From positions 1-29,641 of IMG/VR virus record IMGVR_UViG_3300030102_000860: a stretch of 29,641 nucleotides of DNA. One strand, written 5' to 3'. Both the position numbers and the translations under genes were made by a program. The stretch is from a virus. This document shows, one piece after another, positions 5,958-23,920 of this stretch. Numbering within the stretch: the first letter of the stretch is position 1; each line of letters begins with the position of its first letter. The notes under the pieces were generated by a model, which was not told the DNA's origin, searched no databases, and was given only the letters and a program-made list of their open reading frames with translations.

Positions 5958-7388
5958 ATGAATTATAAATTTAAAAAGAAGCCATATGCACACCAACTTA
6001 CTGCGTTGGAAAAATCTTGGAATAGAGATACGTTCGCATATTTTATGGAAATGGGTACTGGCAAAACAAAGGTACTAATAGATAATTTAGCGATGCTTTA
6101 CGATAAAGGTAAAGTAGATGGTGCATTAATAGTTGCACCCAAAGGTGTGATAGGCACATGGTACAATCAAGAGTTGCCTGCACATTTACCCGATCATATA
6201 GAAAATGTGACGGTATTATGGCAAGCAAATATAAATAAAAAACAACAAGATAAATTAGATCAACTGTTCAAAACAGGTCATGAACTTCATATTATTATAA
6301 TGAACGTGGAGGCATTTAGCACCGACAAAGGTAGATTATTTGCGGCTAAATTTTTAAGATCACATAAATCTTTAATGGCTATTGATGAGTCTACTACAAT
6401 AAAAAATCCAAAAGCAAAAAGAACAAAAAATATATTGTCATTGTCATCCATCTGTAAATACAGACGGATAATGACAGGTTCTCCTGTTACTAGAAATCCT
6501 TTAGATTTGTATTCACAGTGTGAATTTTTAGATCCTTTGCACCTTAATCACTCGTCGTACTACTCTTTTAGAAACAGATACGCAATTATGAAAAGTGCTA
6601 ATATATCTGGACGATCTATTAATCTAGTTACTGGTTATCAAAACCTTGGAGAGTTATCAGATAAACTAAAACCTTTTTCGTACAGAGTGTTGAAAGAAGA
6701 TTGTTTAGATCTTCCCCCTAAAATATACATGAAAAGAGAAATACAATTAACACCAGAACAAAAGAAATTGTACGATCAAATGAAAAGAGAAGCATTAGCT
6801 ACTTTAAATGGTAAAACTGTTACAACCATGACAGCGCTTACACAGCTTATGCGTTTACATCAAATAACGTGTGGACATTTTTCTGCAGATGATGGCACAA
6901 TACAAGAAATTAAAAATAACAGACTAGCAGAATTATTAGATGTGTTGGAAGAGGTAGAGGGCAAAGTAATTATATGGGCCCACTATCAACACGATATAAA
7001 AAATATATTTAAACTATTAGAGGACAAGTATGGTCCGGGTTCCGTGGTTCATTATTACGGCAAGACGCTACCTGAAGAACGGGACTATGCAATCAAGAAC
7101 TTTAAAACAAACGACAAGGTAAGATTCTTTGTAGGCACACCACAAACAGGTGGATATGGTATTACGTTAACACAGGCCAACACTGTTATCTATTATTCTA
7201 ATGGATATGATCTTGAAAAAAGAATGCAATCAGAAGACAGAGCACACAGAATAGGGCAAAAGAAAACAGTGACATATGTAGATATTATAGCAGAAAAAAC
7301 TGTGGATACAAAGATAGTGAAATCTTTACGAAAAAAGATTAATATAGCATCAGAAGTTATGGGAGAGGAGTTAAGAGAATGGATATAA
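5958..7388 (+). CDS. SNF2-family (SF2) helicase/translocase
   Basis: A 476-residue DNA-dependent ATPase with the two RecA-like lobes of Snf2 proteins: Walker A MGTGKT (32-37), motif II DEST (143-146, a variant of DEAH), motif III MTGSPV (172-177), a C-terminal helicase lobe with VIIWAHYQHD, then motif V-like GGYGITLTQA and motif VI QSEDRAHRIGQKK (424-436), the classic Snf2 signature. It is short, with no extra DNA-binding domains. Family members translocate on duplex DNA and remodel protein-DNA complexes rather than separating strands. In a phage this could serve replication restart or recombination (inference). It is transcribed opposite to all neighbours except the next gene, which it overlaps by 10 bp. 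Its leader is very short, with only a weak AGAAAG before the ATG. Confidence 0.9.
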   Translation: MNYKFKKKPYAHQLTALEKSWNRDTFAYFMEMGTGKTKVLIDNLAMLYDKGKVDGALIVAPKGVIGTWYNQELPAHLPDHIENVTVLWQANINKKQQDKLDQLFKTGHELHIIIMNVEAFSTDKGRLFAAKFLRSHKSLMAIDESTTIKNPKAKRTKNILSLSSICKYRRIMTGSPVTRNPLDLYSQCEFLDPLHLNHSSYYSFRNRYAIMKSANISGRSINLVTGYQNLGELSDKLKPFSYRVLKEDCLDLPPKIYMKREIQLTPEQKKLYDQMKREALATLNGKTVTTMTALTQLMRLHQITCGHFSADDGTIQEIKNNRLAELLDVLEEVEGKVIIWAHYQHDIKNIFKLLEDKYGPGSVVHYYGKTLPEERDYAIKNFKTNDKVRFFVGTPQTGGYGITLTQANTVIYYSNGYDLEKRMQSEDRAHRIGQKKTVTYVDIIAEKTVDTKIVKSLRKKINIASEVMGEELREWI

Positions 7389-7894
7389 AAGCACCGTTTA
7401 AAATAAATTTTTTAACAATAAAAACAGAAGGATTCTTTTTAAAAAGAAAAGAAATAAATAAAAAACTTAAAAAGTTTCCTGAAAAAAGATATGCAAACTT
7501 TCATAGTAATAGACAAAAATGCACTATGGAAAAAGATTTTGTAAAAATATTTGAAGATGAATTTCTTAAAATATCAAAATACTTTCAGTCTCAAATGAAT
7601 CTTGAAAGTTGTTGGTCAGCAACATACTCAAAAGGCGATTACCATGTTCCACACAACCATGGTTCTACTGGTTACTGTGGTATCTTATATTTAGATATGC
7701 ATAAAAAATCACCTTCTACTGTGTATATGCAGCCATGGAACGATGATTTTGATAATACTTTGTTATATGAACCCTCTGTGGAAGAAGGAGATATTGTTAT
7801 CGTACCTAAATTTGTGGTTCATTTTACTAGACCAAATTTAGTTTCTTTTAAGAAAAGAATTATATCTTTTGATTTTAATTTTTTTAAAAAATAA
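7379..7894 (+). CDS. 2OG/Fe(II) oxygenase-like protein, HxH type
   Basis: A 171-residue protein with the double-stranded beta-helix signature of 2-oxoglutarate/Fe(II) dioxygenases, close to the 2OG-FeII_Oxy_5 type. W79-x3-Y83 leads into PHNHG, with H92 and H94 as first iron ligands, then GILYLDM. The C-terminal EEGDIVIVPKFVVHFTRPN supplies distal H148, and KKRIISFDFNF supplies R160, expected to bind the 2OG carboxylate. The N-terminus is lysine-rich. The start overlaps the SNF2 gene by 10 bp and has an AGGAG-type site upstream inside that gene, so the two are co-translated. It shares the W-x3-Y-x8-H-x-H spacing with the genes at 8362-8940 and 20116-20700. Substrate unknown. The gene ends directly against the convergent M15 gene. 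Confidence 0.8.
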   Translation: MDIKAPFKINFLTIKTEGFFLKRKEINKKLKKFPEKRYANFHSNRQKCTMEKDFVKIFEDEFLKISKYFQSQMNLESCWSATYSKGDYHVPHNHGSTGYCGILYLDMHKKSPSTVYMQPWNDDFDNTLLYEPSVEEGDIVIVPKFVVHFTRPNLVSFKKRIISFDFNFFKK

Positions 7895-8365
7895 TTATTC
7901 TAACCAAGGCGTGTAAACTACTTTACCATCAACTCTTTGTGCACGTAATGATTGATTTCTATTTGAATTAGATGAGTAAGAACAATGTATCCAACCCGAA
8001 GTTGGTTCGTTATCTTTGTAAAATTCTAAAATGAGTTGGTCGTAATCAAGTTCATTCTTAATGTAGAGAGCTAGCTCTCTGTTGTCTACACCAGGTATCT
8101 CGAAGTCTGCCGCGGCTGCATTGTCATCTGCCACATGTTGACTGTTCACACTGCTGCCTATAGCAATGCAAAGTTCAGCACAACGAAATCCGCTAGATAT
8201 GATTAATGGTTTGTTGTAGTGCGAACGTATGGGTTGCAAAATATTTATCGCTAATTCTTTAAGATTTTCTATCTGCGCTGGGTTAGGGTTGTTATTGATC
8301 CCCTTCCTTTCAGCGACCTGGCTTTTGGTAAGCTCGTCTAAAGTTATGTTTGCTGTCAACTTCAT
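7895..8365 (-). CDS. M15-family peptidase, probable endolysin
   Basis: A 156-residue D-Ala-D-Ala carboxypeptidase/L-Ala-D-Glu endopeptidase-like protein, probably the lysis enzyme that cuts peptidoglycan peptides. Visible motifs are SGFR (58-61), SQH with zinc ligand H77, D87 in AADFEIPG, and GWIHCSY with H127. In most M15_3 enzymes the second motif is SxHxxGxAxD, with seven residues from His to Asp. Here the spacing is ten (HVADDNAAAAD) and the glycine is missing, an apparent three-residue insertion at the zinc site. No signal peptide is seen, so it needs a holin. The XhlA-like protein two genes upstream is a candidate partner. It overlaps the preceding oxygenase gene by 4 bp. Confidence 0.85.
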   Translation of the reverse strand: MKLTANITLDELTKSQVAERKGINNNPNPAQIENLKELAINILQPIRSHYNKPLIISSGFRCAELCIAIGSSVNSQHVADDNAAAADFEIPGVDNRELALYIKNELDYDQLILEFYKDNEPTSGWIHCSYSSNSNRNQSLRAQRVDGKVVYTPWLE

Positions 8366-8940
8366 AATATTTTAAAATTATACGCTAAACTAATTCTCAT
8401 TTTATCAGACTCATTTCTTGCTACAGAATGTCTTATATCTGATTTGAACATTATTAACTTTCCTGGCTCTGGTGTAAAGTTAAAACTTTGCCATGTATAT
8501 GCATTATTTTTATCATAAAGAGGGGGTATTGTACGTAATAAAGGACCATTAACTTTTAGATTTCCACAATTTCTATCTGTTTGTAGATAATAAATAGAGA
8601 CTAACTGGTCTGTAATATGGTCGTGTTCCTCCTGATAATCTCCAGGTTTATAATAGTTTATCCAACTAGAATCACAATTTATTTTTCTGTTTTTATATCC
8701 AATTACATCTGCAAATTCATATATGTTATCATACACAAATTTTGTGATACTATTAAACTTTGCATTTAAATGTATTTGATAAGTTCCACAGGTATTAAAT
8801 ACGTTAGATTCCCAATTATCACCACCTTTTTTAACTTCTTTTTTAATTTTCATACACTCTTCTGTAACTTCTTTCTCTGTATCAAAATGTTTTTTATTAA
8901 ACACTTCTCCTACTGGAGTCGCAAAAAGGTTGTGAATCAT
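8362..8940 (-). CDS. 2OG/Fe(II) oxygenase-like protein, HxH type, in the lysis region
   Basis: A 192-residue protein with W93-x3-Y97 then H106-D107-H108 (EEHDHI), a SIYYLQ strand, PGKLIMFKSDIRH giving the distal H171, and MRISLAYNF with R182. This is the same ligand arrangement and spacing (W-x3-Y-x8-H-x-H ... H ... R) as the genes at 7379-7894 and 20116-20700, typical of phage 2OG-FeII_Oxy proteins. It lies between the XhlA-like membrane protein and the endolysin, an unexpected place for an oxygenase. The start shares one base with the stop of the membrane protein gene (TAATG at 8938-8942), and its end overlaps the endolysin start by 4 bp. All expected active-site residues are present, so it is probably active. 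Substrate unknown. Confidence 0.82.
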   Translation of the reverse strand: MIHNLFATPVGEVFNKKHFDTEKEVTEECMKIKKEVKKGGDNWESNVFNTCGTYQIHLNAKFNSITKFVYDNIYEFADVIGYKNRKINCDSSWINYYKPGDYQEEHDHITDQLVSIYYLQTDRNCGNLKVNGPLLRTIPPLYDKNNAYTWQSFNFTPEPGKLIMFKSDIRHSVARNESDKMRISLAYNFKIL

Positions 8941-13987: not shown

Positions 13988-14908
13988 TTATAAGTTTACG
14001 TTAATTTTTCCAGGATTTGTTACTGCTCCGTAGATACCCGCTAATGTTGAACCTACACCAAGAGCTGTTTGTAATGGTGTTGGGTTAGGGACCGATTGAA
14101 CAGTAGTTGAACCAGGGTAACCACTAATTAATTGCGCTATACCAGATCCAAATCTATTTAATCTATCAATAGGTTCAAATGCTTCTAATCTTCTACCCTC
14201 TCTAGCTGCGTCTGCTTCCGCTTGCGCTTGGGTTTGTTGGATGGCGCCCAAACGACCCAACTGTGAAACATCTGCTCTTTGTAGACTAGGAAGTTGTGAA
14301 GCTAGTCCTGATTGAAATTCTCCTAAACCTAATCTAGATCTTGATAGGGCTTGTCTATTTGCTAAATCTTGTTGTCTTCTACCCACGGCATCATCAAAAC
14401 CTTGTTGTAATAATCCTGCTTGTAACAGTGCTCTTTCTCTAGCTTGACCTGTGCCAAGCTCTGCAAGTTGAACTCCTGCTCTGCCTGCACCAAGAACACC
14501 TAATTGTGCTTGTCGATCTCTTATACCTTGCTGTTGTATCTGTGCTTGTCTATCAAACTCTGAAAGAGTTGCATCAATAACTTGCGATTGATATGGAGAC
14601 ATGAAATCTTGAATAGATCCTGTGCCTGTTCCTGCACCAGATCCTAACATAGCCTCTGCACCAGCTATACCTGTAGCTGCTTGACCTGCTTGCTGTTGTG
14701 CTGCAGTTACAAAAGGTTGAAATGAGCCTACACCTTGTTGTGCTAAACTTATGGCTTGCGTTTGTAATGGGTCTTGCGCTGCAACTGTAGGTGCAAATTG
14801 TGAAGTATCTAGAGGTTGAGCCGTTGATGCTGTTAGCTGTTTACCGTAATCTACTGCTAGATCTTCTATAAATTTTGGTGGTAATACTCGTGATTCTGTA
14901 ATTGCCAT
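13988..14908 (-). CDS. Gln/Ala-rich internal virion protein (T7 gp14-like in position and composition)
   Basis: A 306-residue protein with long Gln/Ala/Gly-rich helical stretches (e.g. FVTAAQQQAGQAATGIAGAE; RDRQAQLGVLGAGRAGVQLA; QQTQAQAEADAAREGRRLEA) and a small hydrophobic C-terminal part (LQTALGVGSTLAGIYGAV) that could insert in a membrane. T7 gp14, the small ejection protein that forms the outer-membrane pore, is likewise a short Ala/Gln-rich protein encoded before gp15 and gp16, and here the gene is followed by a 276-residue and a 1329-residue protein. Assignment is by composition and order, not detectable sequence similarity. Its ATG shares a base with the preceding stop (TAATG at 14906-14910). 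Confidence 0.6.
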   Translation of the reverse strand: MAITESRVLPPKFIEDLAVDYGKQLTASTAQPLDTSQFAPTVAAQDPLQTQAISLAQQGVGSFQPFVTAAQQQAGQAATGIAGAEAMLGSGAGTGTGSIQDFMSPYQSQVIDATLSEFDRQAQIQQQGIRDRQAQLGVLGAGRAGVQLAELGTGQARERALLQAGLLQQGFDDAVGRRQQDLANRQALSRSRLGLGEFQSGLASQLPSLQRADVSQLGRLGAIQQTQAQAEADAAREGRRLEAFEPIDRLNRFGSGIAQLISGYPGSTTVQSVPNPTPLQTALGVGSTLAGIYGAVTNPGKINVNL

Positions 14909-16626
14909 TATGCTACCTTATTTTCCAGTTGTTTCATTGTTTTATACATCAGATCTGCTCCCTTATCAACACTTCCTCCACCTGCCGCTCTCACTGCATC
15001 AGCTGTAAAAACGAACTCATTCTTGGATAATCTAGCAGGAACATCGTCTGCTTTCTCTTCTTTGCCTATAGGCACAAAACCACCACCTCTTAAATCCATC
15101 TCATTACCACCTAGATCCATCATGCCACCTTCGGCAGCTGTAGCTCTTTCAATGCCTTGTTTTTTACCTTTTGTAAAATATTCAATAAGTATTTCTTGTT
15201 CACTATCATTTAATTGATTATATGGTCTACCAAATAAATCTATAGACAGTTGGTTTAATTCACCAAATGTTGATGGCATAGATGCTGTCTCCATAGGTGC
15301 ATCTTCAATATCCCCACCATCTGCTGCCATGGTTCTTACTTCTCCTAAAAATGGATATTTAGTTCTTAAACCACTAATGTCTCCTGATGCATATGCATCT
15401 TGAACTTCTTTTCTAATCTCTGCAACATTAATACCTGTTTTATCAGCTATTAATTTAGATAATTCTTCTTCCTCTTGTTTTGGTGTCATTAATGCTGAAG
15501 CCCCTGATAAAGCTGCAATTGTTAATCCTGCACCACCACCTGGAAATTTACTAATACCTTTACTACCTAGTTTACCTACCTCTGTAAAAAAACTACGTGT
15601 AGGTGTTGTATAATCCATGACACTTGGAAATAAACCTTGAGCAAAACCTGCTCCTTTTATACCTGCAAGTTTACCACCAAACATTGTACTACCTTTAGCA
15701 AAAGGCCCAAGTCCTCCTGCATAGGCGCCTAAACCTATTGCTATCGCAGCTTTACCTATATCTGATTTAGCAACTTTCTTAACAGCTCTTCCTACTTTTT
15801 TAACTAACTTACCCAAACCATATTCTTGTCTAACTTCACCGCCTTTGGCTAATCTATACTTTTCAGAAATCTCAAATGGATTAGGATTCCTTGCTCGCGT
15901 AGCTGCAAGAAACTCTGAAAGACCACTTCTGTCTGACTCTTCATTTGATTGCGTTCTTGGAATTACAGGTAATGGAATTTTAACTAAATCGTCATCTCCA
16001 CCATCTCCACCTGAAGGTCCTTTTGGTCCAGTTTTCATACCTGTTGTTTCTTTGTATTGTGTTCTTAAACTGTCAGGCAACGTGCCAAAAAATTGTTGAC
16101 CACCTTGAATAGCATTCATTAAATCTTTTTGTTTTTCTTGTTCTTTTGATAATAGTTGATCTACAGTTAGTCCAATTTCTGGTCCAAAAAAAAGAGTTGA
16201 TAAAATACTTGCTGTTCTTCTTCCACCAGTAGTCACCGGTTTACCATATGGATCTTTTGTAATGTATTGTCCAGATCCTCCATCACCTGGTTGTGGAGGT
16301 CCTTTTGGTCCTCTAGTTATAGTAGAAAAATTTCCGCCGCCATCTCCGTTTCCTCCGCCACCACCGCCGGATGGTCCGCTTGGTCCAAAAGCTGCTTCAC
16401 TTAAACTTTCAGCAACAGATCCTTTGCCTGATCCAAAGTCAACAAAACTTGGAATACCCATAGGTGTCATGATACCAGAGCCTCCAGCAGCTCTTAACAT
16501 GTCAGCTTCTTTTGGGTTTATATATGCAAGAAACTCACCTTTAGGTGCCATTCTTTTAGCATCATCTAATGATACTCCACCTTCTGCTAATAATTGTCTT
16601 GCTATTTGTGATCTAGTTATTGCCAT
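14908..16626 (-). CDS. Gly-rich virion protein with collagen-like patches and a cationic amphipathic segment
   Basis: A 572-residue protein. Order of parts: helical N-terminus (MAITRSQIARQLLAEGG); Gly/Pro-rich linkers with collagen-like Gly-X-Y runs at about 81-119 (GPSGPS, GPKGPPQPGDGG) and 200-213; a cationic amphipathic stretch at 269-288 (YGLGKLVKKVGRAVKKVAKS with its flanks); then hydrophobic small-residue segments at about 289-307 and 366-380; an acidic region; and a C-terminal block PARLSKNEFVFTADAVRAAG that I associate with marine phage structural proteins. The composition suggests a membrane-active ejection or tail-internal protein. It lies between three small genes and the gp14-like gene. 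No enzymatic motif is seen. Function is inferred from context. Confidence 0.6.
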   Translation of the reverse strand: MAITRSQIARQLLAEGGVSLDDAKRMAPKGEFLAYINPKEADMLRAAGGSGIMTPMGIPSFVDFGSGKGSVAESLSEAAFGPSGPSGGGGGGNGDGGGNFSTITRGPKGPPQPGDGGSGQYITKDPYGKPVTTGGRRTASILSTLFFGPEIGLTVDQLLSKEQEKQKDLMNAIQGGQQFFGTLPDSLRTQYKETTGMKTGPKGPSGGDGGDDDLVKIPLPVIPRTQSNEESDRSGLSEFLAATRARNPNPFEISEKYRLAKGGEVRQEYGLGKLVKKVGRAVKKVAKSDIGKAAIAIGLGAYAGGLGPFAKGSTMFGGKLAGIKGAGFAQGLFPSVMDYTTPTRSFFTEVGKLGSKGISKFPGGGAGLTIAALSGASALMTPKQEEEELSKLIADKTGINVAEIRKEVQDAYASGDISGLRTKYPFLGEVRTMAADGGDIEDAPMETASMPSTFGELNQLSIDLFGRPYNQLNDSEQEILIEYFTKGKKQGIERATAAEGGMMDLGGNEMDLRGGGFVPIGKEEKADDVPARLSKNEFVFTADAVRAAGGGSVDKGADLMYKTMKQLENKVA

Positions 16627-16635
16627 TTTTCCACA

Positions 16636-16806
16636 CTACTTGGTTTTAGGGAACAAATCAAGCGCAGGCATAATTACTTTTACGTCCCTTCTAATATCCT
16701 CTTCTAACACACCTTTTGACTTCCACTCGTCCTCTGTTTTATATATCTCTCCTGTTTTCTTGTGAGATATTGTTGTTATTATCTCTTTTGGTTTTATCTC
16801 TAACAT
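16636..16806 (-). CDS. Small conserved hypothetical protein (56 aa)
   Basis: The reading frame runs from the ATG at 16806-16804 to TAG at 16638-16636 and encodes 56 residues beginning MLEIKPKEIITTISHKKTGE and ending PALDLFPKTK. It fills what would otherwise be a 180-bp gap in a gapless operon. The ATG shares one base with the stop of the preceding gene (TAATG at 16804-16808). The protein is charged, with no membrane segment, signal peptide or known motif; the middle (EIYKTEDEWKSKGVLEEDIR) is probably helical. Spacing, coupling and clean codon usage make it a real gene. It may be a small structural or chaperone factor for the adjacent virion proteins; function unknown. Confidence 0.7.
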   Translation of the reverse strand: MLEIKPKEIITTISHKKTGEIYKTEDEWKSKGVLEEDIRRDVKVIMPALDLFPKTK

Positions 16807-17147
16807 TATGATGTCACCTCTCTTGGCTGTATTTGTAGTATTGAAGCTATAACGTGCAGCTCATTCGCGTCAGAGGCTTGTACTTTTAATACCTCACTTT
16901 CTTGCATAACAAGAGGTTGAGTTAAAAGTTCCACTGTTGTGTTAGTATCCACCGCCTTTGTTTTAAACAAACTAAATATGTTAGAGCTAGCATCAACTAG
17001 AGTCACCGTTATATTACAGCTAGATCCAGCATCGTTAGAGACTAATATTGATTTTACCACAGATACGTTGGCCGAGGGCACTGTGTATAAAGTGGTTAGA
17101 TCAGTGGTTGTTAAATCCGTTTTTGCATTTATAAAACTATTTGCCAT
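16806..17147 (-). CDS. Small beta-rich virion protein
   Basis: A 113-residue protein rich in Thr, Val, Ser and Leu with alternating hydrophobic residues typical of a beta-sandwich (e.g. TLYTVPSANVSVVKSILVSN, CNITVTLVDASSN, VLKVQASDANELHVIASILQ). It lacks catalytic or metal motifs. Such proteins in podovirus late operons are commonly decoration or tail-surface proteins. The position just downstream of the nozzle gene and a 54-residue gene fits a tail component. Both ends are TAATG overlaps (17145-17149 and 16804-16808), so translation is coupled in series with its small neighbours. Structural role is inference from composition and location. Confidence 0.6.
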   Translation of the reverse strand: MANSFINAKTDLTTTDLTTLYTVPSANVSVVKSILVSNDAGSSCNITVTLVDASSNIFSLFKTKAVDTNTTVELLTQPLVMQESEVLKVQASDANELHVIASILQIQPREVTS

Positions 17148-17311
17148 TAATTTAAAAAGAAGTTTTCAGCTTCCACCTCATCTTTTAAGTCTTGTTGATA
17201 CGTAGTATTTAATTTATTAATGATACCATCAATATCTCTAGCTTGTGACTCTGATATTGTATAATCATATTCTACACTAGGTCTTGTAAATGTTTGCACT
17301 ATCTTCGCCAT
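17147..17311 (-). CDS. Small hypothetical protein (54 aa)
   Basis: The frame runs from the ATG at 17311-17309 to TAA at 17149-17147 and encodes 54 residues: MAKIVQTFTRPSVEYDYTIS at the start, then a helical acidic half ending VEAENFFLN. It fills the 163-bp space between the nozzle-like gene and the beta-rich gene exactly, sharing one base with the stop before it and one with the start after it (TAATG at 17309-17313 and 17145-17149). No known motif, membrane segment or cysteine is present. The exact fit in a coupled series is the main evidence that it is real. Function unknown; small tail or assembly factor is a guess. Confidence 0.68.
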   Translation of the reverse strand: MAKIVQTFTRPSVEYDYTISESQARDIDGIINKLNTTYQQDLKDEVEAENFFLN

Positions 17312-19518
17312 TATCTTCTACCATCCGGTTGTATGTCTAATCTAAACGTTCCAATTTTCCAGTCTTGACCAGTGCCTGTATTTTCTACTTTTAAAGCCAC
17401 TGCTCTTCCTCTAGCTCTAGTGTCAACCTTTGTTGTTGACGATGTGATAGTAAAAGGTCCTAAAGAAGAACTAGCTGCAGTATCGTTAGAATAGTTTTTT
17501 AAATTTAATGTAACTTGTGTATTACCTGTTTGAGATACAAAGTCTGGTATAAATCTTCTGACCTTCATTAAAAACTCTCCATCTCCTCTAAAAGTTGGTG
17601 TTCCTGACACCTGTCCTCTTTGAAGTTGTTGAGTAATATCAAAGTCTCCTGATAATATATTAGCTGTAATTGCAGTTATTGTTCCGTTCTTGTTTTGATC
17701 AGTCCCTGTTTCGTGTTCATAGTAAGCTGTTCTTCCCTCTGTATTACCTACAACATCAAAAGAGGTATCTGTATCTGCATCATACTCTAGAGCATGAGGT
17801 AAACCAAACACGGCTGAATCTTTCCACATAGTTCTATCTAACGTGCCAATAGTCCATACAGGTCTTTGTGGCGATGAATCAAAATAATTATAACAAACCA
17901 TTTTATTTACAACAGAGGATGTTGCTGACGGATAAAACCACATAATCTCACCAAACAAATTATTAAGCCCCGCAGATATCATCTGATTACCAGATGATAT
18001 ATTGATATCATCAAATACAAAATCTTCTACTAAACATGGGAGTGATTCTAATTTACCAGCGTATCTAAAGAATCCATTTTCAGATAACCAGTATGCTGCA
18101 CCATCTACCTCTACAACAGCATTTTGTCCCGCAAGTCCACAGTTTGTACCAGCTTGTGTAAATGCAAAAGTAAACGGTTGACCAACAAAACGCATTAAGA
18201 ACAATGCGGTATCAGTATAAACATAGATTGCATCTCTACCTCTAATGGCTCCTCTGATCTGTGATCCGTCGGCCAGTCTCTGTGTACCGGCTGTATTGGT
18301 TGCTGTAGGTGTATAAGTATTAATATCTTCTTGGTCCGAGAATCTAATAAACATATCGTCTTGTGTAGATTTATTACCAATAGTTGTTTCTGTTCCAAAA
18401 AATACCAAGTGTCTATCCGGTGTTGATACTACCATGTGTCTTGAAGCTGTAGGAGCTCCAGATATAATCGTGCATCGTGTGTCAGTGGCATTTGATAAAG
18501 ATGAGTCCCACTCAAAAACCTCACCATCATGAATTAAACAAATAGCTTTATCACCAAAATTATCTAGTGACCACATACCAGGTTCTAATACTAAATCTCC
18601 AGATGCGGCCTCACCCCAAGCTACGAAGTCAGTTGTATTTGTTACAGTCGCCCCGTCGCTGTGCGCGGCTCTCGTTGTGCCTCTTACAGCTCTGGTAATC
18701 CCTGTTAAAGTTGTGCCACTTGTGACACCAGTGTAAGATATTTCTTCTGTTCCTACTTTTATAAAATTTGTTCCTGAACTTGGAAACTGTGATGCATCGG
18801 CTAAAACAATGCTAGTGCCTGACCCTCCAGTTCCAAAAGCATTATCGCCTAAAGCTCCGTTAAGTGTAGTAGTTACAGCGTTGGTAGCTTCACCACCCCA
18901 AGAACCTAAACCCCAACCAAAACCTTTTTCTTGAACTGCAGATCCAACGGGAAAGTAGTGTTGTACTCTAATACCTCCAGATGTCGTGGCTCCAGAACCA
19001 GACTCGTTTGATGGCATTGTAATAGTAATTGTCTCTGTTGTAGGCACAGAAGTAACCATAAATTTTTTATCATCAAAATCAGATGCACTAAAATTAGATC
19101 CGGTAATGGTCGTAAAATTATCTAAAAGAATAATATCCTGTGGGTTAATACCATGAGCTGTAGCAAAAGTTATTGTTACGGTCGGTGATCCGTTGGTCGT
19201 GCTAAATGCATTGGTAAGCGTTGTAGTGGATTTAATTGGGTGTATGTCATAGAACACACCACCTGAAAAAGCATATAATATCCTGTTTGTGCCTATGATT
19301 GCGTATCTTCGACCTAAACTATTAACAAAGTGGTGTAAACCTCTACCAGCTCCTGTTAATTCATTTTCATTTTCGTTACCTAGTTGGTTCCAGCCACCAA
19401 TTTTTTCTGGAACACCATATCTAAAACGAACATTATCACAGTCTATCCACTGCCCCTCGGCCGCTGTGGCTGTGATCTGTTTGTTAATACCCGGTTGAAA
19501 GCCTATCTTCTGTAGCAT
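17311..19518 (-). CDS. Tail nozzle/stabilisation-like protein (T7 gp12 / P22 gp10 type role)
   Basis: A 735-residue, beta-strand-rich protein. The N-terminus LQKIGFQPGINKQITATAAEGQW followed by WIDCDNVRFRYGVPEKIGGW resembles the opening of P22 gp10-like packaged-DNA stabilisation proteins and other podovirus nozzle proteins. The interior has repeated strand-turn-strand elements with many Asp/Gly turns (GRRYAIIGTNRILYAF, HLVFFGTETTIGN, GRDAIYVYTDTALFLMRFVG), compatible with a beta-propeller or multi-domain beta fold. At the C-terminus, QDWKIGTFRLDIQPDGRR also fits that family. Length fits nozzle proteins (T7 gp12 has about 790 residues). It would form the tail tube end below the adaptor. No Shine-Dalgarno is visible. 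A terminator-like hairpin lies immediately upstream, separating it from the oxygenase cluster. Confidence 0.65.
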   Translation of the reverse strand: MLQKIGFQPGINKQITATAAEGQWIDCDNVRFRYGVPEKIGGWNQLGNENENELTGAGRGLHHFVNSLGRRYAIIGTNRILYAFSGGVFYDIHPIKSTTTLTNAFSTTNGSPTVTITFATAHGINPQDIILLDNFTTITGSNFSASDFDDKKFMVTSVPTTETITITMPSNESGSGATTSGGIRVQHYFPVGSAVQEKGFGWGLGSWGGEATNAVTTTLNGALGDNAFGTGGSGTSIVLADASQFPSSGTNFIKVGTEEISYTGVTSGTTLTGITRAVRGTTRAAHSDGATVTNTTDFVAWGEAASGDLVLEPGMWSLDNFGDKAICLIHDGEVFEWDSSLSNATDTRCTIISGAPTASRHMVVSTPDRHLVFFGTETTIGNKSTQDDMFIRFSDQEDINTYTPTATNTAGTQRLADGSQIRGAIRGRDAIYVYTDTALFLMRFVGQPFTFAFTQAGTNCGLAGQNAVVEVDGAAYWLSENGFFRYAGKLESLPCLVEDFVFDDINISSGNQMISAGLNNLFGEIMWFYPSATSSVVNKMVCYNYFDSSPQRPVWTIGTLDRTMWKDSAVFGLPHALEYDADTDTSFDVVGNTEGRTAYYEHETGTDQNKNGTITAITANILSGDFDITQQLQRGQVSGTPTFRGDGEFLMKVRRFIPDFVSQTGNTQVTLNLKNYSNDTAASSSLGPFTITSSTTKVDTRARGRAVALKVENTGTGQDWKIGTFRLDIQPDGRR

Positions 19519-19528
19519 AGATTACAAA

Positions 19529-19547
19529 ATATAGCACAAAGCTATAT
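19529..19547 (-). terminator. Possible intrinsic terminator after the oxygenase cluster
   Basis: On the minus strand a 7-bp stem ATATAGC/GCTATAT with a 5-nt loop (TTTGT) is followed by TTTTGT. It sits in the 32-bp gap between the stop of the 19551-20123 gene and the nozzle ATG at 19518. The stem is AT-rich and the T-run is short, so termination would be partial at best. It could instead set relative mRNA levels of the cassette and the nozzle gene. Confidence 0.35.
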
Positions 19548-19550
19548 ATT

Positions 19551-20123
19551 TCAATGTTTAAATATACAATTAACCACTACCCTAAATCTACAATTTAAGG
19601 GAGGACTAGCGGCATGTAAGGTATTTGAATCAAATACAACAGCTCGTCCTTTTTTGGGTCTGACTCTTTTTATCACTTTTCTGTGGTTATCAAAGAATAA
19701 AGTATCTCCATCTGAATCATTTACATAATATAGGACGCTTGTATAAATATTACCAGGATAGTCAGAATGCAATGACCCATGGGTTTCTTCATTTGCACCT
19801 ATTATCTGAACATTTAAATTAGCTTTTACTCTAAAAAAACTTTTAATTTTAATAGCCTTATTAGACTTATACATTTTCTCAAGTCGTGGCCAGTGCATAG
19901 AATTTCCTTTTTCCTCAACGTAAAAAGTATGGCAAAATTGATGATAATCTTTTTCAAAAGGTAAACCTGAATTTACTTTAATTCCTGAAGTATAGTTGTC
20001 TGGAATGTAATTTGCAGTGTGAGCAAGAAACCAAGGAAATTGATTGTTAAGATCTATACAAAGAGTTTCTTCAAGAAAGTCTTGATCTTCTTTTTTAAAA
20101 AAATTGTCTATTACTTTAATCAT
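19551..20123 (-). CDS. 2OG/Fe(II) oxygenase, HxD type (prolyl-hydroxylase-like)
   Basis: A 190-residue protein with a complete dioxygenase active site: H119-S-D121 (SLHSDYPGN), then a YTSVLYYVNDSDGDTLFF segment (the GD[TE]LFF turn common in prolyl 4-hydroxylase-like proteins), a KKGRAVVFDSNTLH strand giving distal H170, and R181 in FRVVVN as the expected 2OG-binding arginine. The N-terminus (MIKVIDNFFKKEDQDFLEET) is the usual opening of phage P4H-like proteins. It is the last gene transcribed in the five-gene oxygenase cluster, overlaps the preceding oxygenase gene by 8 bp, and is followed by a hairpin. Substrate unknown: protein side chains, DNA bases and small molecules are all possible for the fold. 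Confidence 0.87.
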   Translation of the reverse strand: MIKVIDNFFKKEDQDFLEETLCIDLNNQFPWFLAHTANYIPDNYTSGIKVNSGLPFEKDYHQFCHTFYVEEKGNSMHWPRLEKMYKSNKAIKIKSFFRVKANLNVQIIGANEETHGSLHSDYPGNIYTSVLYYVNDSDGDTLFFDNHRKVIKRVRPKKGRAVVFDSNTLHAASPPLNCRFRVVVNCIFKH

Positions 20124-20700
20124 AATTAGCTGCTACAGATACTCTTTCTACATTTTTACTTTTAAAAGGATATACCCAATGTGATACAAAAGATGGAAAA
20201 ATAAACATGTCTCCCTCTTTTGGCATTGGTGCCCACATGGTGTTTAAATCTCTTGGTTGATGCTCTCCATAAATAAATGCTAGAGAACCAGGAGATTCAC
20301 TAGTTCCTTTAAACCTATCAGCCTCCTCTTGTAATTGTTTAGGAACTTTTAAAAAAAGAACAGAAGAAAATCTACATCCAGTGTGTATATGTGGAGGATT
20401 AAAATCTCCTGCTTTCATATAGTTAACCCAAACTACTTGAGTATTTATAGAGGGTAATTCTTTATTATAGAAATCTTTATATAACTTTTTATAAAGTTCT
20501 AATTTATCTAAAATAATTTTTTCATACTCTGTAGTATTTATTCGATATTCCGTTTCAAAATGACCTGCTAATTTTCTATGATGTGAAACTTTTTTATTAC
20601 AAATTTTTTTTAAATTTGTAATTTGTTCTTTTGTAATTTTCGTTGCCATAATAAGAGGGCCAAAATATGGAAAGAAAAAATTATTTATATTTGAGTTCAT
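20116..20700 (-). CDS. 2OG/Fe(II) oxygenase-like protein, HxH type
   Basis: A 194-residue protein with W91-x3-M95 then H104-I-H106 (NPPHIHTG), a FSSVLFLKVP strand, and EGDMFIFPSFVSHWVYPF giving distal H174, with R186 in ERVSVAANYD. This matches the phage 2OG-FeII_Oxy_5-like pattern and the 7379-7894 and 8362-8940 proteins at the same spacing. A long linker between the strands (residues 120-160) carries AFIYGEHQPRDLN. The first 17 residues are hydrophobic and poorly conserved-looking, so MATKITKEQ at residue 18 could be the real start; neither start has a clear ribosome site. A GC-rich hairpin occupies the 48-bp gap just upstream. Confidence 0.8.
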   Translation of the reverse strand: MNSNINNFFFPYFGPLIMATKITKEQITNLKKICNKKVSHHRKLAGHFETEYRINTTEYEKIILDKLELYKKLYKDFYNKELPSINTQVVWVNYMKAGDFNPPHIHTGCRFSSVLFLKVPKQLQEEADRFKGTSESPGSLAFIYGEHQPRDLNTMWAPMPKEGDMFIFPSFVSHWVYPFKSKNVERVSVAANYD

Positions 20701-20709
20701 CTTTATAAA

Positions 20710-20735
20710 GGGGATAGTCGTGGTGAAACTACCCC
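20710..20735. other. GC-rich hairpin inside the oxygenase cluster
   Basis: GGGG-A-TAGT (20710-20718, with a bulged A) pairs with ACTACCCC (20728-20735) around a 9-nt loop. It lies in the 48-bp gap between two oxygenase genes (20701-20748), the largest gap within the cluster. On the leftward transcript the stem is followed by TTTATAAAG and then the next ATG, so it could be a weak terminator, an mRNA stability element or a site hiding the start. It resembles the hairpin at 4203-4232 in its G-rich/C-rich arms. Confidence 0.45.
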
Positions 20736-20748
20736 CATTCTTCCTATA

Positions 20749-21363
20749 TCATTTTCTAAACCACCCAGGAAGTCCTAAATGTAGTCGTCCATCGAACATA
20801 TTCTTTTCAGCTTTCTTGGAAACTTTGTTGTAGTGTAAAAAGACTTGAGCACAGTCTTGACCTTTGAATGCTTCTCTCCAATGCTCTAACTCACATCCAG
20901 AATAAATAAGCATGTCTCCTGGTTTTAAATCTATCTTGACTCCTTTTAATCCTTTTTTGCCTGATGGCTCTAAATATATTGGCCAAGAATCTCCACCTAA
21001 ATTAAGTGTAGTAGATATCTCACAACTAAATCTATCTTTGTGTCTTTCAAGAACATCACCTTTTTTATAAATTCTTGCATAAGAGTAAGTAGGCGTTAAT
21101 TTTAAACCTGTGTGTTTTTCCATAGCAGGCTGAACTTTTAATAACAAAGTCTCCATGGCTATATCGGCGTAGTGTGAATATGTATTTGGAACTTGATTGT
21201 CATTCCATCTACCCCAATCTTCTTCATGCTTTGATATGTAGTTGTATTTAAATAAAGTGTCAGCAACTTGTCTTTTCATCAAAAAATAATTGTAGACAAA
21301 TCCAGCTAAATCAGAAGACACAGCTTTCTTTAAAACAGTGTATTTGTTTTTTTTAAAACTCAT
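20749..21363 (-). CDS. 2OG/Fe(II) oxygenase-like protein, HxD type
   Basis: A 204-residue protein. H108-K-D110 (LERHKDRFSCEIS) gives the facial-triad start, after a YARIYKKGDVLE strand. LKPGDMLIYSGCELEHWREAF gives distal H161. The strand that usually carries the 2OG-binding arginine reads AQVFLHYN, with Gln173 there instead; R163 next to the distal His may take over, or cosubstrate binding may differ. The HKDR...EIS...LEHWRE combination is one I associate with phage and cyanophage hydroxylase-like proteins. The C-terminus ends in GRLHLGLPGWFRK. The start shares one base with the previous stop (TAATG at 21361-21365). Likely active, substrate unknown. Confidence 0.78.
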   Translation of the reverse strand: MSFKKNKYTVLKKAVSSDLAGFVYNYFLMKRQVADTLFKYNYISKHEEDWGRWNDNQVPNTYSHYADIAMETLLLKVQPAMEKHTGLKLTPTYSYARIYKKGDVLERHKDRFSCEISTTLNLGGDSWPIYLEPSGKKGLKGVKIDLKPGDMLIYSGCELEHWREAFKGQDCAQVFLHYNKVSKKAEKNMFDGRLHLGLPGWFRK

Positions 21364-22007
21364 TATCTATATGGTTTTCCTAAATTCCAAATTACTAAAC
21401 TATATCTAACACCTTTAGTTATTGGTTTAACTCTATGCCAAACAAAAGATGGAAAAACAACTATACTACCTTTAGGTAGTATCTCCGTGCATAATTTAGT
21501 ATTCCTAGCACGTTCAGGATCTTGATTTCTTAAATCAAATTCTAACTCTCCTCCTTGATATTTTTTTGGATCAGTTAAACTCACTGTCACAGATAGTTTT
21601 CTTATCAAACCATTTTCTGGTCCTTCTTTTTTGTAAGGCTTGTCCCAACTGTCTTGATGCCAGTCATAGTATTGACCTTCTTTGTATATGGTAAACTGAC
21701 AAGATTCAGATCTATCCCAATCAAAATTCCAACCAGCTTGCTGATTAGCCTCTCTAATAAAGGGGTGTATTTCTTTGTATATCCATCTATCGTCTAACCA
21801 AACAATATTAGAATCTCTTTTCTTTTTTAAATTAAAAAGTTCTCTTTCATTTAAAGGGTTCTTTTTTATATCTCTATATTTATTTTTTTCTTCTGCTCCT
21901 GTGATAGCAATCCCTTCTTTCTGTTCTTTGCCGTGTCTTATTATTAAATCACATATTTTAGATGGAAGCGCAGATTTAAAATAATAGTAATAATTATTTA
22001 AATTCAT
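21363..22007 (-). CDS. 2OG/Fe(II) oxygenase, PKHD/prolyl 4-hydroxylase-like
   Basis: A 214-residue protein and the most canonical of the set. CQFTIYKEGQYYDWHQDSW gives H117-Q-D119, KLSVTVSLTDPKKYQGGELE is the usual strand followed by a GGELEF turn, KGSIVVFPSFVWHRVKPITK gives distal H191, and GVRYSLVIWNLG gives R201. This matches PKHD-type hydroxylases of the prolyl 4-hydroxylase alpha-subunit family (P4Hc), whose known members hydroxylate prolyl residues or other protein side chains. The N-terminus is Tyr-rich (MNLNNYYYYF). The gene overlaps the degenerate paralogue upstream by 14 bp and the next oxygenase gene by one base. It is the best candidate in the cluster for a peptidyl hydroxylase, by family only. 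Confidence 0.9.
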   Translation of the reverse strand: MNLNNYYYYFKSALPSKICDLIIRHGKEQKEGIAITGAEEKNKYRDIKKNPLNERELFNLKKKRDSNIVWLDDRWIYKEIHPFIREANQQAGWNFDWDRSESCQFTIYKEGQYYDWHQDSWDKPYKKEGPENGLIRKLSVTVSLTDPKKYQGGELEFDLRNQDPERARNTKLCTEILPKGSIVVFPSFVWHRVKPITKGVRYSLVIWNLGKPYR

Positions 22008-22545
22008 ATGTTGTAGTTAAAAATATGTTACGCTTTCTAGACAAGTTAGGTGTTATAAAATATTTTAACGAGCTTGGAAACATAACAAAGAAATTGCTTT
22101 TCATTTGAACAAACCACTTCCTGCCCGCTCTACGATTATTATCAAATTCAATAACCATTTGACAAGATTCTGGTTGAACATCTATTCCATACACAAAAGT
22201 ATAATCAGGAGAGTGCCTTAAATCTAAAGGGTCCACAGTATTTCTTAAAAAAGATTGTTCTTTAGGTGCGTAAACATTTCCCCAATTTTTTACAGGAATT
22301 AAATGTTTTCCATAGTCTATTTTATGGTGATCTTTAAAATGATCCTGTAACCAAGATAATTCTTTTGAGTATTCTACTACATAATCAAGATAAGAGTAAT
22401 TTCTGTCATCATCACTCATTCTTTTTTTATCTATAAAAGACTCTAATATATTACCTTTTATTTCTGCTCTTTTGATTTCAAAATGTTTTGGAGTTTTAAT
22501 TTCGCCGTAATAATAATCTATTTCTGATAGCACCACTTTTTTCAT
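21994..22545 (-). CDS. Degenerate 2OG-oxygenase-like protein lacking iron ligands
   Basis: A 183-residue protein that follows the HxH-type oxygenase pattern of its neighbours without the metal residues. W88-x3-Y92 is followed at the same spacing by R101-N-T103, where the active paralogues have HxH. Near the C-terminus FVMFPSSLKYFITPN lines up with FPSFVSHWVYPF, placing Y162 where the distal His should be. The last strand keeps basic residues (RKRNIFLTTTYEF) at the 2OG-arginine position. The frame is intact, so it is maintained rather than decaying, and may be a binding, regulatory or structural pseudoenzyme. It opens the five-gene cluster. Alternatively it is an unrelated cupin-fold protein with other ligands; H111 and H81 are the remaining histidines in the region. 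Confidence 0.6.
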   Translation of the reverse strand: MKKVVLSEIDYYYGEIKTPKHFEIKRAEIKGNILESFIDKKRMSDDDRNYSYLDYVVEYSKELSWLQDHFKDHHKIDYGKHLIPVKNWGNVYAPKEQSFLRNTVDPLDLRHSPDYTFVYGIDVQPESCQMVIEFDNNRRAGRKWFVQMKSNFFVMFPSSLKYFITPNLSRKRNIFLTTTYEFK

Positions 22546-22548
22546 AAT

Positions 22549-23007
22549 TTATACTGAATTTATATCAATTAAATCCCATGTTTGTCCAGCTTCATTCCAC
22601 TGATATTCCCAAAAATTACCTGTTGCTGCCTCTGCAGATGCAAGATTTTCTGCTTCTTGTTCAGCCGTTAGGCTAGGTTTTGCAACTGGGGGATCCCAAG
22701 CCGCTGTTGATAAATTTAAAGTCCAACTATCATAAGGTTTTGGCGGTATAAAAATGTCGTTTGTTTCGTCATAATTCCAACCAACACCAGGGTAGTTTCC
22801 TCTAAAAGGTGTTCCACCTAATTTATGTGTATTTCTAAAAGTATTATAAGAGCACTTTTTCCAAAGCGGATAGAAGTGTACTTTTTCTAGGTATCTTCTA
22901 CCTCTTTCCTCTTCTTCAACACCCTCATCGCTAGAGGTTTTAACATCATCTACGACATGTACTCCTAGTACTCTGTTATCTTCATCTAATTTTGCAAAAT
23001 GTGCCAT
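22549..23007 (-). CDS. Fibre-associated conserved phage protein (cyanophage-type family)
   Basis: A 152-residue protein starting MAHFAKLDEDNRVLGVHVVD, a form frequent next to tail-fibre genes in marine and cyanobacterial phages. The middle has aromatic-rich blocks WKKCSYNTFRNTH, FRGNYPGVGWNYDETNDIFI and PPKPYDSWTLN, and the end has WEYQWNEAGQTWDLID. I recall the NYxGxGxxYDxxxDxFIPPKPYxSW signature in these families; function is not established, and tail-fibre chaperone or distal fibre component are the usual guesses. It lies between the Gly-rich adhesin (upstream) and the degenerate oxygenase (downstream) with 3-13 bp gaps, all in one operon. No metal or catalytic motif is visible. Confidence 0.7.
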   Translation of the reverse strand: MAHFAKLDEDNRVLGVHVVDDVKTSSDEGVEEEERGRRYLEKVHFYPLWKKCSYNTFRNTHKLGGTPFRGNYPGVGWNYDETNDIFIPPKPYDSWTLNLSTAAWDPPVAKPSLTAEQEAENLASAEAATGNFWEYQWNEAGQTWDLIDINSV

Positions 23008-23020
23008 ATTCTATAAATCC

Positions 23021-23920
23021 TTATTGAAACTTATATCTTATTACTACAATTCCTGATCCACCAGTATGGCCTGATCCTGCACCACCACCGGTATTAGCTT
23101 GCCCTGCAGACCCTGAAGGTCCAGTACCACCACCGCCGGAACCGCCGCCACCTGGGCCACCAGTTCCACCAGCACCAGGATTTGCGATTGAATATCCTCC
23201 ACCGCCACCACCGCCAGCTCGTGTTACGGGTGATCCTGTAATTGATGTTGAAACTCCCGGACCACCAGGCCCACCAGCATTACCTTGTCTAGCGTTTCCA
23301 GCACCTCCGGCTCCTCCGCCGCCAGCTGCCGATCCAGTGTTTCCACCAGGGGGCTCTCTTCCTTGTGCGCCAGGTTGTCCTTGAGGTGGACTTGTTGGAG
23401 GTTGATTTCCATTACTTCCAGGAGCAAATTGATTTTCACCGCCGCCACCACCAGAACCACCGTCTCCGTTTGGACCCATTCCACCACCAGCGGATGTTAT
23501 TGTACTAAAAATTGAAGGCTCGCCTTGTGAGCCTGGTTGATTTGTTCCACCAGCGCCTACTTGTATTGGATAACTACCAGCTGCTAAAGTTATAGCACCT
23601 GCTCCTTCTAAAGGAGATTGAGTATATGAATCATTAGCTGCTTCGTCTTCTCTAAAGCCGCCGCCACCTCCGCCGCCGTTTTGTCCAGCTGCATTGGTTC
23701 CGCCACCACCACCAACTACCATATAACTAGCTAAATTGTTTGGTTGAGGAGCTGGTCCACCAAAACCTGCTATTGCAACGTTAAATGTGCCGTCTCCAGT
23801 AAATGTGTGAATTTTATAATCTCCAGAAGTGGTTTCTGTTCCACCTGTAGCTACTACGAACTCTGACGTTGCAGTTCCGCCTCCAAAGCCTAAAACTTTA
23901 TATCCAAATCCAGTTGCCAT
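23021..23920 (-). CDS. Glycine-rich tail-fibre/adhesin protein
   Basis: A 299-residue protein. The N-terminal domain (1-70) has strands with YKIHTFTGDGTFNVAIAG and LASYMVVGGGGG. The remainder is dominated by polyglycine runs (82-88, 156-161, 199-203, 236-242, 257-266) with Pro/Gly-rich collagen-like stretches such as PPTSPPQGQPGAQGREPPGG (174-193). The end SGIVVIRYKF is the usual terminal strand of Gly-rich phage fibre domains. Polyglycine-II sandwich tips are known from T-even-type adhesins (phage S16 gp38), so a receptor-binding tip is plausible by composition. It follows the tail-fibre gene by 8 bp with a good ribosome site. The Pro-Gly stretches are potential hydroxylation targets (speculative). 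Confidence 0.72.
   Translation of the reverse strand: MATGFGYKVLGFGGGTATSEFVVATGGTETTSGDYKIHTFTGDGTFNVAIAGFGGPAPQPNNLASYMVVGGGGGTNAAGQNGGGGGGGFREDEAANDSYTQSPLEGAGAITLAAGSYPIQVGAGGTNQPGSQGEPSIFSTITSAGGGMGPNGDGGSGGGGGENQFAPGSNGNQPPTSPPQGQPGAQGREPPGGNTGSAAGGGGAGGAGNARQGNAGGPGGPGVSTSITGSPVTRAGGGGGGGYSIANPGAGGTGGPGGGGSGGGGTGPSGSAGQANTGGGAGSGHTGGSGIVVIRYKFQ

Follow-up and report, generated by a model that had tools for sequence, protein, structure and literature searches.

Why would a virus keep a row of oxygenase genes beside the gene of its own fibre? The question is raised by IMG/VR virus record IMGVR_UViG_3300030102_000860, a stretch of 29,641 bases analysed here as a whole (the window), whose nearest named relatives are the pelagiphages HTVC033P and HTVC023P and the related environmental phage 023Pt_psg01. 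Seven of its genes are oxygenase-fold genes of the Fe(II)/2-oxoglutarate (2OG) type, six of them active-looking and one (21994) without the iron ligands, and five of the seven form a cassette that adjoins 23021, the gene of a glycine-rich fibre. We lean towards the explanation that the product of one cassette gene, 20749, adds hydroxyl groups to prolines within the Gly-rich domain of 23021, which would be the receptor-binding fibre of the same phage: across relatives, Gly-rich fibres encoded beside a 20749 homologue contain about twice as much proline as those without one. The enzyme that matters is probably 20749, rather than 21363 or 19551, the two genes that a sequence-only reading of the window had put forward. 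The genes of the fibre slot, in their order on the minus strand, are:

25293-23929, minus strand: fibre-like protein that bounds the slot on the side away from the tail gene, placed by synteny
23920-23021, minus strand: Gly-rich fibre or adhesin, the proposed substrate (33% Gly, 7.4% Pro; PF21722, 6.3e-7)
23007-22549, minus strand: small conserved partner of Gly-rich fibres, phrog_7759 (2e-34), used as tree marker
22545-21994, minus strand: predicted pseudo-oxygenase of the same fold, HxD...H ligands not conserved
22007-21363, minus strand: PKHD-type 2OG-Fe(II) oxygenase (PF13640, 2.5e-15)
21363-20749, minus strand: proposed prolyl hydroxylase, labelled "ferrochelatase" (phrog_2954, 4.1e-51), with HKD at 108-110, H161 and Q173
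20700-20116, minus strand: 2OG-Fe(II) oxygenase, PF13759 type (1.3e-16)
20123-19551, minus strand: 2OG-Fe(II) oxygenase, PF13640 type (3.9e-9; phrog_274, 1.8e-36)
19518-17311, minus strand: conserved tail protein that bounds the slot, downstream of the cassette in relatives, used as scan marker

Proline in Gly-rich fibres with and without the enzyme

The Gly-rich fibre and its phrog_7759 partner occur as a pair both with and without a 20749 homologue in view, which is why Gly-rich proteins, defined by a minimum of 22% Gly and 180 residues, were compared according to enzyme state. From each viral scan, with about 500-600 matches, the 80 best were used, among which close relatives dominate, and "no enzyme" means that none was detected in the available stretch at E<=1e-4 with profiles built from relatives. 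In 422 loci there were 410 Gly-rich proteins, 362 of them non-redundant. Beside a 20749 homologue these average 6.0% Pro (n=151), compared with 3.0% (median 2.35%, n=39) where there is no 2OG enzyme, 3.2% (n=21) where only the 21363 type occurs and enough DNA lies beyond, 2.9% (n=12) with other 2OG families only, and 2.2% (n=6) where none was seen over a shorter stretch. The other 133 of the 362 had no assignable enzyme state (54 at 4.3%, 8 at 2.8% and 71 at 2.8% Pro) and were left out of later tests. Since G+C is 0.37 in enzyme-positive loci and 0.48 in loci with none, base composition works against the Pro effect.

The comparison was repeated with two further scans; these added 156 loci, with 132 Gly-rich proteins distinct from the first set. 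Mean Pro was 6.4% with 20749 (n=12) and 3.0% without it (n=51: 37 with none, 8 with the 21363 type only and 6 with other 2OG families), an area under the curve of 0.92; 69 proteins without assignable state were left out. At a cut of at least 4% Pro, set after the first set had been seen, 10 of the 12 fibres with the enzyme passed, as did 10 of the 51 without.

A tree-aware regression on the phrog_7759 partner protein gave the same direction. The gain in Pro with the enzyme is 3.2 points (t=5.65) over 135 loci and, with G+C as a covariate, 3.05 points (t=6.71) over 186 loci, the largest effect among the 20 amino acids, followed by Ser (-1.5 points) and then Thr (-3.2 points). When all seven oxygenase-fold families are entered jointly, 20749 alone stands out clearly (t=4.65); the 21363 family stands at 1.09, the 19551 family at 1.59 and the 8362 family at -1.87, with the others below 1 in size. 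Dropping three collagen-like loci leaves the outcome unchanged (20749, t=4.64; 8362, -2.16). A correlation across relatives, which had been suggested as a check, is present between 20749 and the Pro of Gly-rich fibres; for 21363 and 19551 no clear effect is left when 20749 is included.

The excess lies mostly within the Gly-rich segments themselves, which hold 6.5% Pro with the enzyme and 2.3% without. The corresponding values are 5.5% and 4.0% outside those segments in the same proteins and 4.2% and 3.9% in neighbouring genes (background computed after masking antisense open reading frames of Gly-rich genes), and the partner protein goes the opposite way, with 4.6% and 5.9%. Beside the enzyme, X-Pro-Gly is up 3.4-fold and Pro-Pro 5.7-fold, and no such increase is seen for Pro before Ser or Thr. 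X-Pro-Gly is the site of collagen prolyl 4-hydroxylase. As Gly follows Pro in enzyme-positive fibres about as often as composition predicts (observed/predicted ratio 0.92), its rise comes partly from there being more Pro in a Gly-rich protein.

These contexts bear on the idea that the enzyme modifies the fibre at another residue, such as Asn, Lys or His, and that extra Pro is a separate structural trait of a co-travelling fibre type. 2OG oxygenases act on many residues, the cassette adjoins fibre genes of several types, and Lys and Cys, too, are higher beside the enzyme in raw counts. Under tree and G+C control, however, the Lys and Cys enrichments are weak or gone (t=1.85 and 0.72) while Pro is the strongest of the 20, and the Pro excess falls in X-Pro-Gly and Pro-Pro contexts, so that we consider a different target residue rather unlikely.

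Three further genes, outside the slot, enter the argument:

16626-14908, minus strand: Gly-rich virion protein, outside the proposed system
8940-8362, minus strand: further 2OG-Fe(II) oxygenase (PF13759, 8.8e-18)
7379-7894, plus strand: further 2OG-Fe(II) oxygenase (phrog_81, 7.4e-25)

The sequence-only reading took it as conceivable that 21363 and 19551 hydroxylate collagen-like Gly-X-Y stretches in both 14908 and 23021, all in one late operon. The four genes do lie on one strand, both enzymes have PF13640 domains, and the Gly/Pro motifs exist: GPSGPS (residues 81-86), GPKGPPQPGDGG (106-117) and GPKGPS (200-205) in 14908, and a Pro-rich stretch from residue 174 in 23021. The stretches are not collagen-like, however. 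Each protein has strict G-X-Y runs of no more than 3 triplets, a length matched or exceeded in 57% (23021) and 53% (14908) of 2000 composition-preserving shuffles, and no Pfam collagen domain is found in either at E<=1; 23021 matches Gly_rich_2 (PF21722) instead, with 30.1 bits against a cut-off of 24.3. As a substrate, 14908 was rejected, with 4.65% Pro in orthologues with the enzyme and 5.06% in those without, and GPxGP in only 2 of 39 enzyme-positive orthologues. True long collagen-like runs do occur in phage Gly-rich genes, namely in L302:3941-5380 (up to 24 triplets), L338:2776-5775 and L496:5230-5811 (11 and 14), and no 2OG gene was detected near these three. In its original form the proposal is therefore very improbable. 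The intuition behind it was sound in kind, the details were not: that the phage hydroxylates Pro in its own adhesin has comparative support for 23021 and the cassette gene 20749, and this support extends neither to collagen-like sequence, nor to 14908, nor to the two enzymes named.

The predicted fold of 20749 and the other oxygenase genes

The 20749 protein matches phrog_2954 and phrog_3531, both named ferrochelatase, and published labels and readings, as far as the accessible texts go, place such genes in host metabolism (PMC9599517, PMC11561400, PMC9602691). That they serve host haem, iron or 2OG metabolism is nevertheless quite improbable in our view, given the location of 20749 in the fibre slot, its association with Pro and the nature of the protein. 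A ferrochelatase function was rejected: none of 35 family members matches a Pfam ferrochelatase family at E<=1, and the predicted model (pLDDT 84.7) has the double-stranded beta-helix fold of Fe(II)/2OG enzymes. This model matches 585 PDB chains at E<=0.001; those listed, 50 in number, are dioxygenase-type or uncharacterized, and among its matches are the Pseudomonas putida prolyl-4-hydroxylase (E 1.6e-8) and PHD2. Upon re-alignment the PKHD protein 3dkq comes top (Z 16.9), with the epimerase SnoN at 16.7 and PHD2 and prolyl 4-hydroxylase (P4H) at about 15-16.

The iron triad H108, D110 and H161 is invariant in 35 sequences, and HxD...H persists in divergent myovirus homologues in an alignment read by eye. 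The relation is visible by fold only, as a PDB sequence search with the 20749 profile found no oxygenase, and there is no sequence-profile link between 20749 and 21363 (hhalign probability 0.6%). On the strength of the model, 20749 is likely to be an Fe(II)- and probably 2OG-dependent dioxygenase. With the P. putida enzyme (PDB 4iw3, with EF-Tu; 4j25) and the animal PHD2/EGLN it shares the predicted fold over ~160 residues and the HxD...H triad, and it differs from them in its low identity (11-13%), in a Gln in place of their basic 2OG-binding residue, and in the proposed substrate, a phage Gly-rich fibre. By tblastn over the phages collection, 20749 finds 156 records, among whose first name words Methylophilales, Roseobacter and Pontimonas do not appear; five rows are Pelagibacter phages (HTVC033P, HTVC023P, HTVC008M twice, and Mosig).

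The motifs described for the two enzymes of the sequence-only reading are all in place: HQD 117-119, GGELEF 152-157, H191 and R201 in 21363 (214 residues), and HSD 119-121, H170 and a following Arg in 19551 (190 residues). In 21363, H117, D119, H191 and R201 are invariant in 31 sequences. The likeness to prolyl 4-hydroxylases stands as far as HxD...H...R goes, but the closest solved structures by sequence comparison are PKHD-type and not P4H: the best PDB relative by sequence is PiuC (2e-7; P4H at E 0.44), and a profile search gives PKHD 7e-9 and the PBCV-1 P4H 0.003. The PKHD-type PiuC/YbiX proteins (PDB 9ghl, 3dkq) thus come closest to 21363 and, in 3dkq, also top the re-aligned list for 20749; unlike the window enzymes they are bacterial, and to our knowledge they are not tied to phage fibres. 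The viral collagen prolyl hydroxylase of PBCV-1 (PDB 5c5t) is likewise virus-encoded, of the same superfamily and named as acting on proline; it comes from an algal virus, its weak sequence relation is to 21363 alone, and its substrate is collagen-type by title. As for 19551, its PHROG family (phrog_274) is named "DNA endonuclease V" despite the 2OG-Fe(II) oxygenase domain, probably another wrong label.

The enzyme set first proposed was correct for 21363 and 19551 and incomplete, since 7379 (plus strand), 8362, 20116, 20749 and the ligand-less 21994 share the superfamily or fold. Four of the seven (8362, 19551, 20116 and 21363) score above the cut-off against 2OG-Fe(II) oxygenase families of Pfam, and 7379 falls just under it (26.9 of 27 bits). 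The genes 7379-7894 and 8362-8940 flank a gene at 7895-8365, distant from the fibre slot. The 21994-22545 gene belongs to a conserved family of ~183 residues; it matches phrog_81 at 4.4e-6, and its model (pLDDT 89.9) aligns with 2rg4 (Z 15.8) and 4j25 (Z 15.6). In 51 family sequences no His is among the 95% conserved columns and no HxD...H is conserved, and the protein is accordingly a predicted pseudo-oxygenase.

The fibre slot in relatives

Of 160 loci examined around the marker tail gene, 27 have the complete slot. A Gly-rich fibre accompanied by 2OG genes occupies 21 of these; three have a LamG-type fibre and no 2OG gene, and three have 2OG genes without a Gly-rich fibre. LamG/SPRY-type fibres with no oxygenase occupy the same slot in L137, L149, L156 and L164. 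The Gly-rich fibre, its phrog_7759 partner and homologues of 21363 and 20749 are clustered in pelagi-podoviruses, and the same four-gene neighbourhood recurs in the myoviruses S-SM1, S-RSM4, S-SSM5 and Bellamy. In HTVC008M the fibre neighbourhood has 21363 and 20749 homologues adjacent on the opposite strand, and in Mosig the fibre lies near these homologues, with no phrog_7759 partner detected. HTVC023P has Gly-rich fibre proteins among gp59-gp62, whereas for HTVC025P a Gly-rich fibre was found and no enzyme was detected.

The slot varies as a module between relatives, which favours a purely historical account: a Pro-richer fibre lineage and the cassette would have met in one recombining slot, with no enzyme-substrate relation. 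The small number of enzyme state changes on the 186-locus tree (8) also speaks for it. Against it, the sister comparisons agree in direction in 6 of 6 cases, the six other families of the same cassettes have no clear positive effect on Pro, and the non-Gly-rich AKYN-type fibre shows the same direction, with 5.3% Pro with the enzyme (4 proteins) and 2.9% without (2 proteins), tiny numbers in both cases. We hold such hitchhiking to be unlikely.

Several observations weigh against hydroxylation of fibre prolines by 20749. The enzyme and the fibre may simply have travelled together, as just described, and hydroxyproline in the fibre is something we infer. Homologues of 20749 stand beside another, non-Gly-rich fibre type in 7 loci, and in 57 tail-bearing loci with 20749 no Gly-rich gene was seen in the available DNA, some of it short contigs. 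In the repeat set 10 of the 51 fibres without the enzyme reach 4% Pro, and one HTVC023P fibre beside it has only 1.6% Pro. In the repeat sample alone, Thr (lower) separated the two groups slightly better than Pro, and the tree marker is short (~125 residues). The predicted fold also fits oxygenases with targets other than proline (SnoN, EvdO1 and EctD), so that it gives the superfamily and not the substrate. Finally, Arg or Lys after the distal His binds the C5 carboxylate of 2OG in related enzymes, and in the 20749 family an invariant Gln (Q173) aligns with this position, which makes the use of 2OG uncertain; a residue elsewhere may serve as the 2OG contact.

A possible route to a hydroxylated fibre

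If 20749 acts as we propose, hydroxylation would take place before or during assembly of the fibre. With hydroxyproline, the fibre would have rigid Pro at places taken by Ser or Thr in other phages and still keep a hydroxyl group; this could make the Gly-rich sheets stiffer, change contacts with the receptor or offer a site for further decoration. The remaining oxygenases of the cassette might modify different residues, in this fibre protein or in others, and 21994 could be a binding subunit. As for the fibre, phage S16 gp38 and Pam3 gp24 have a Gly-rich domain at the fibre tip with a proposed role in host recognition (PMC9608196), and by analogy 23021 may be their structural equivalent; the accessible text of that paper mentions no hydroxylase link for these tips.

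Sulfotransferase genes (PF13469, 5e-16 to 5e-10) lie beside the oxygenases in the slot of three relatives (L119:7693-8499, L170:5-790 and L172:5455-6243), and L170 also has a P-loop gene that weakly matches APS kinase, together with a cytidylyltransferase-like gene. These products could decorate hydroxyl groups. Near oxygenase cassettes we also noted an annotated tryptophan halogenase in HTVC008M (L084:6525-7919) and an annotated carbamoyltransferase in S-SSM5 (L253:4157-5821). A wider and more doubtful possibility, which we offer tentatively, is a virion-maturation chemistry common to many ocean phages, in which an oxygenase cassette led by a 20749-type prolyl hydroxylase hydroxylates the receptor-binding fibre and sulfotransferases or other transferases then decorate the newly made hydroxyls in some relatives.

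The same gene classes, 2OG oxygenases and "ferrochelatases", have already been reported as co-located in HTVC023P-type pelagiphages by Wittmers et al. (2022; PMC9599517), whose accessible text interprets them in terms of haem and iron; neither "tail fiber" nor "glycine" occurs in its main text. In the accessible parts of other papers, both classes are enriched in seasonal viruses (PMC11561400), phage 2OG proteins resemble human EGLN3 (the Phold paper, PMC12774648), functions in viruses are stated as not specifically investigated (PMC9602691), and the HTVC027P transcriptome paper mentions a 2OG gene only for its need of iron and 2OG (PMC12753301). According to a 2012 paper (PMC3368898), in the text accessible, the prolyl hydroxylases that collagen requires are lacking in bacteria and viruses. 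Among open PMC papers, we found no report, by title or abstract start, of hydroxyproline in a phage particle or of prolyl hydroxylation of a phage fibre.

In the cited literature, to the extent accessible, 2OG oxygenases and "ferrochelatases" are widespread and unexplained in marine phages and are treated as host metabolism genes. Were 20749 to act on the fibre, a large gene class would gain a concrete and testable function, with HTVC023P and HTVC033P (host HTCC1062) as cultured phages that carry the genes, and a widely used database label would be wrong. Protein hydroxylation would then be part of host recognition by phages of very abundant ocean bacteria. Should the wider cassette reading also hold, the abundant 2OG "auxiliary metabolic genes" of marine phages would for the most part encode enzymes that modify fibres, and host recognition would hinge on residues invisible in the genome sequence.

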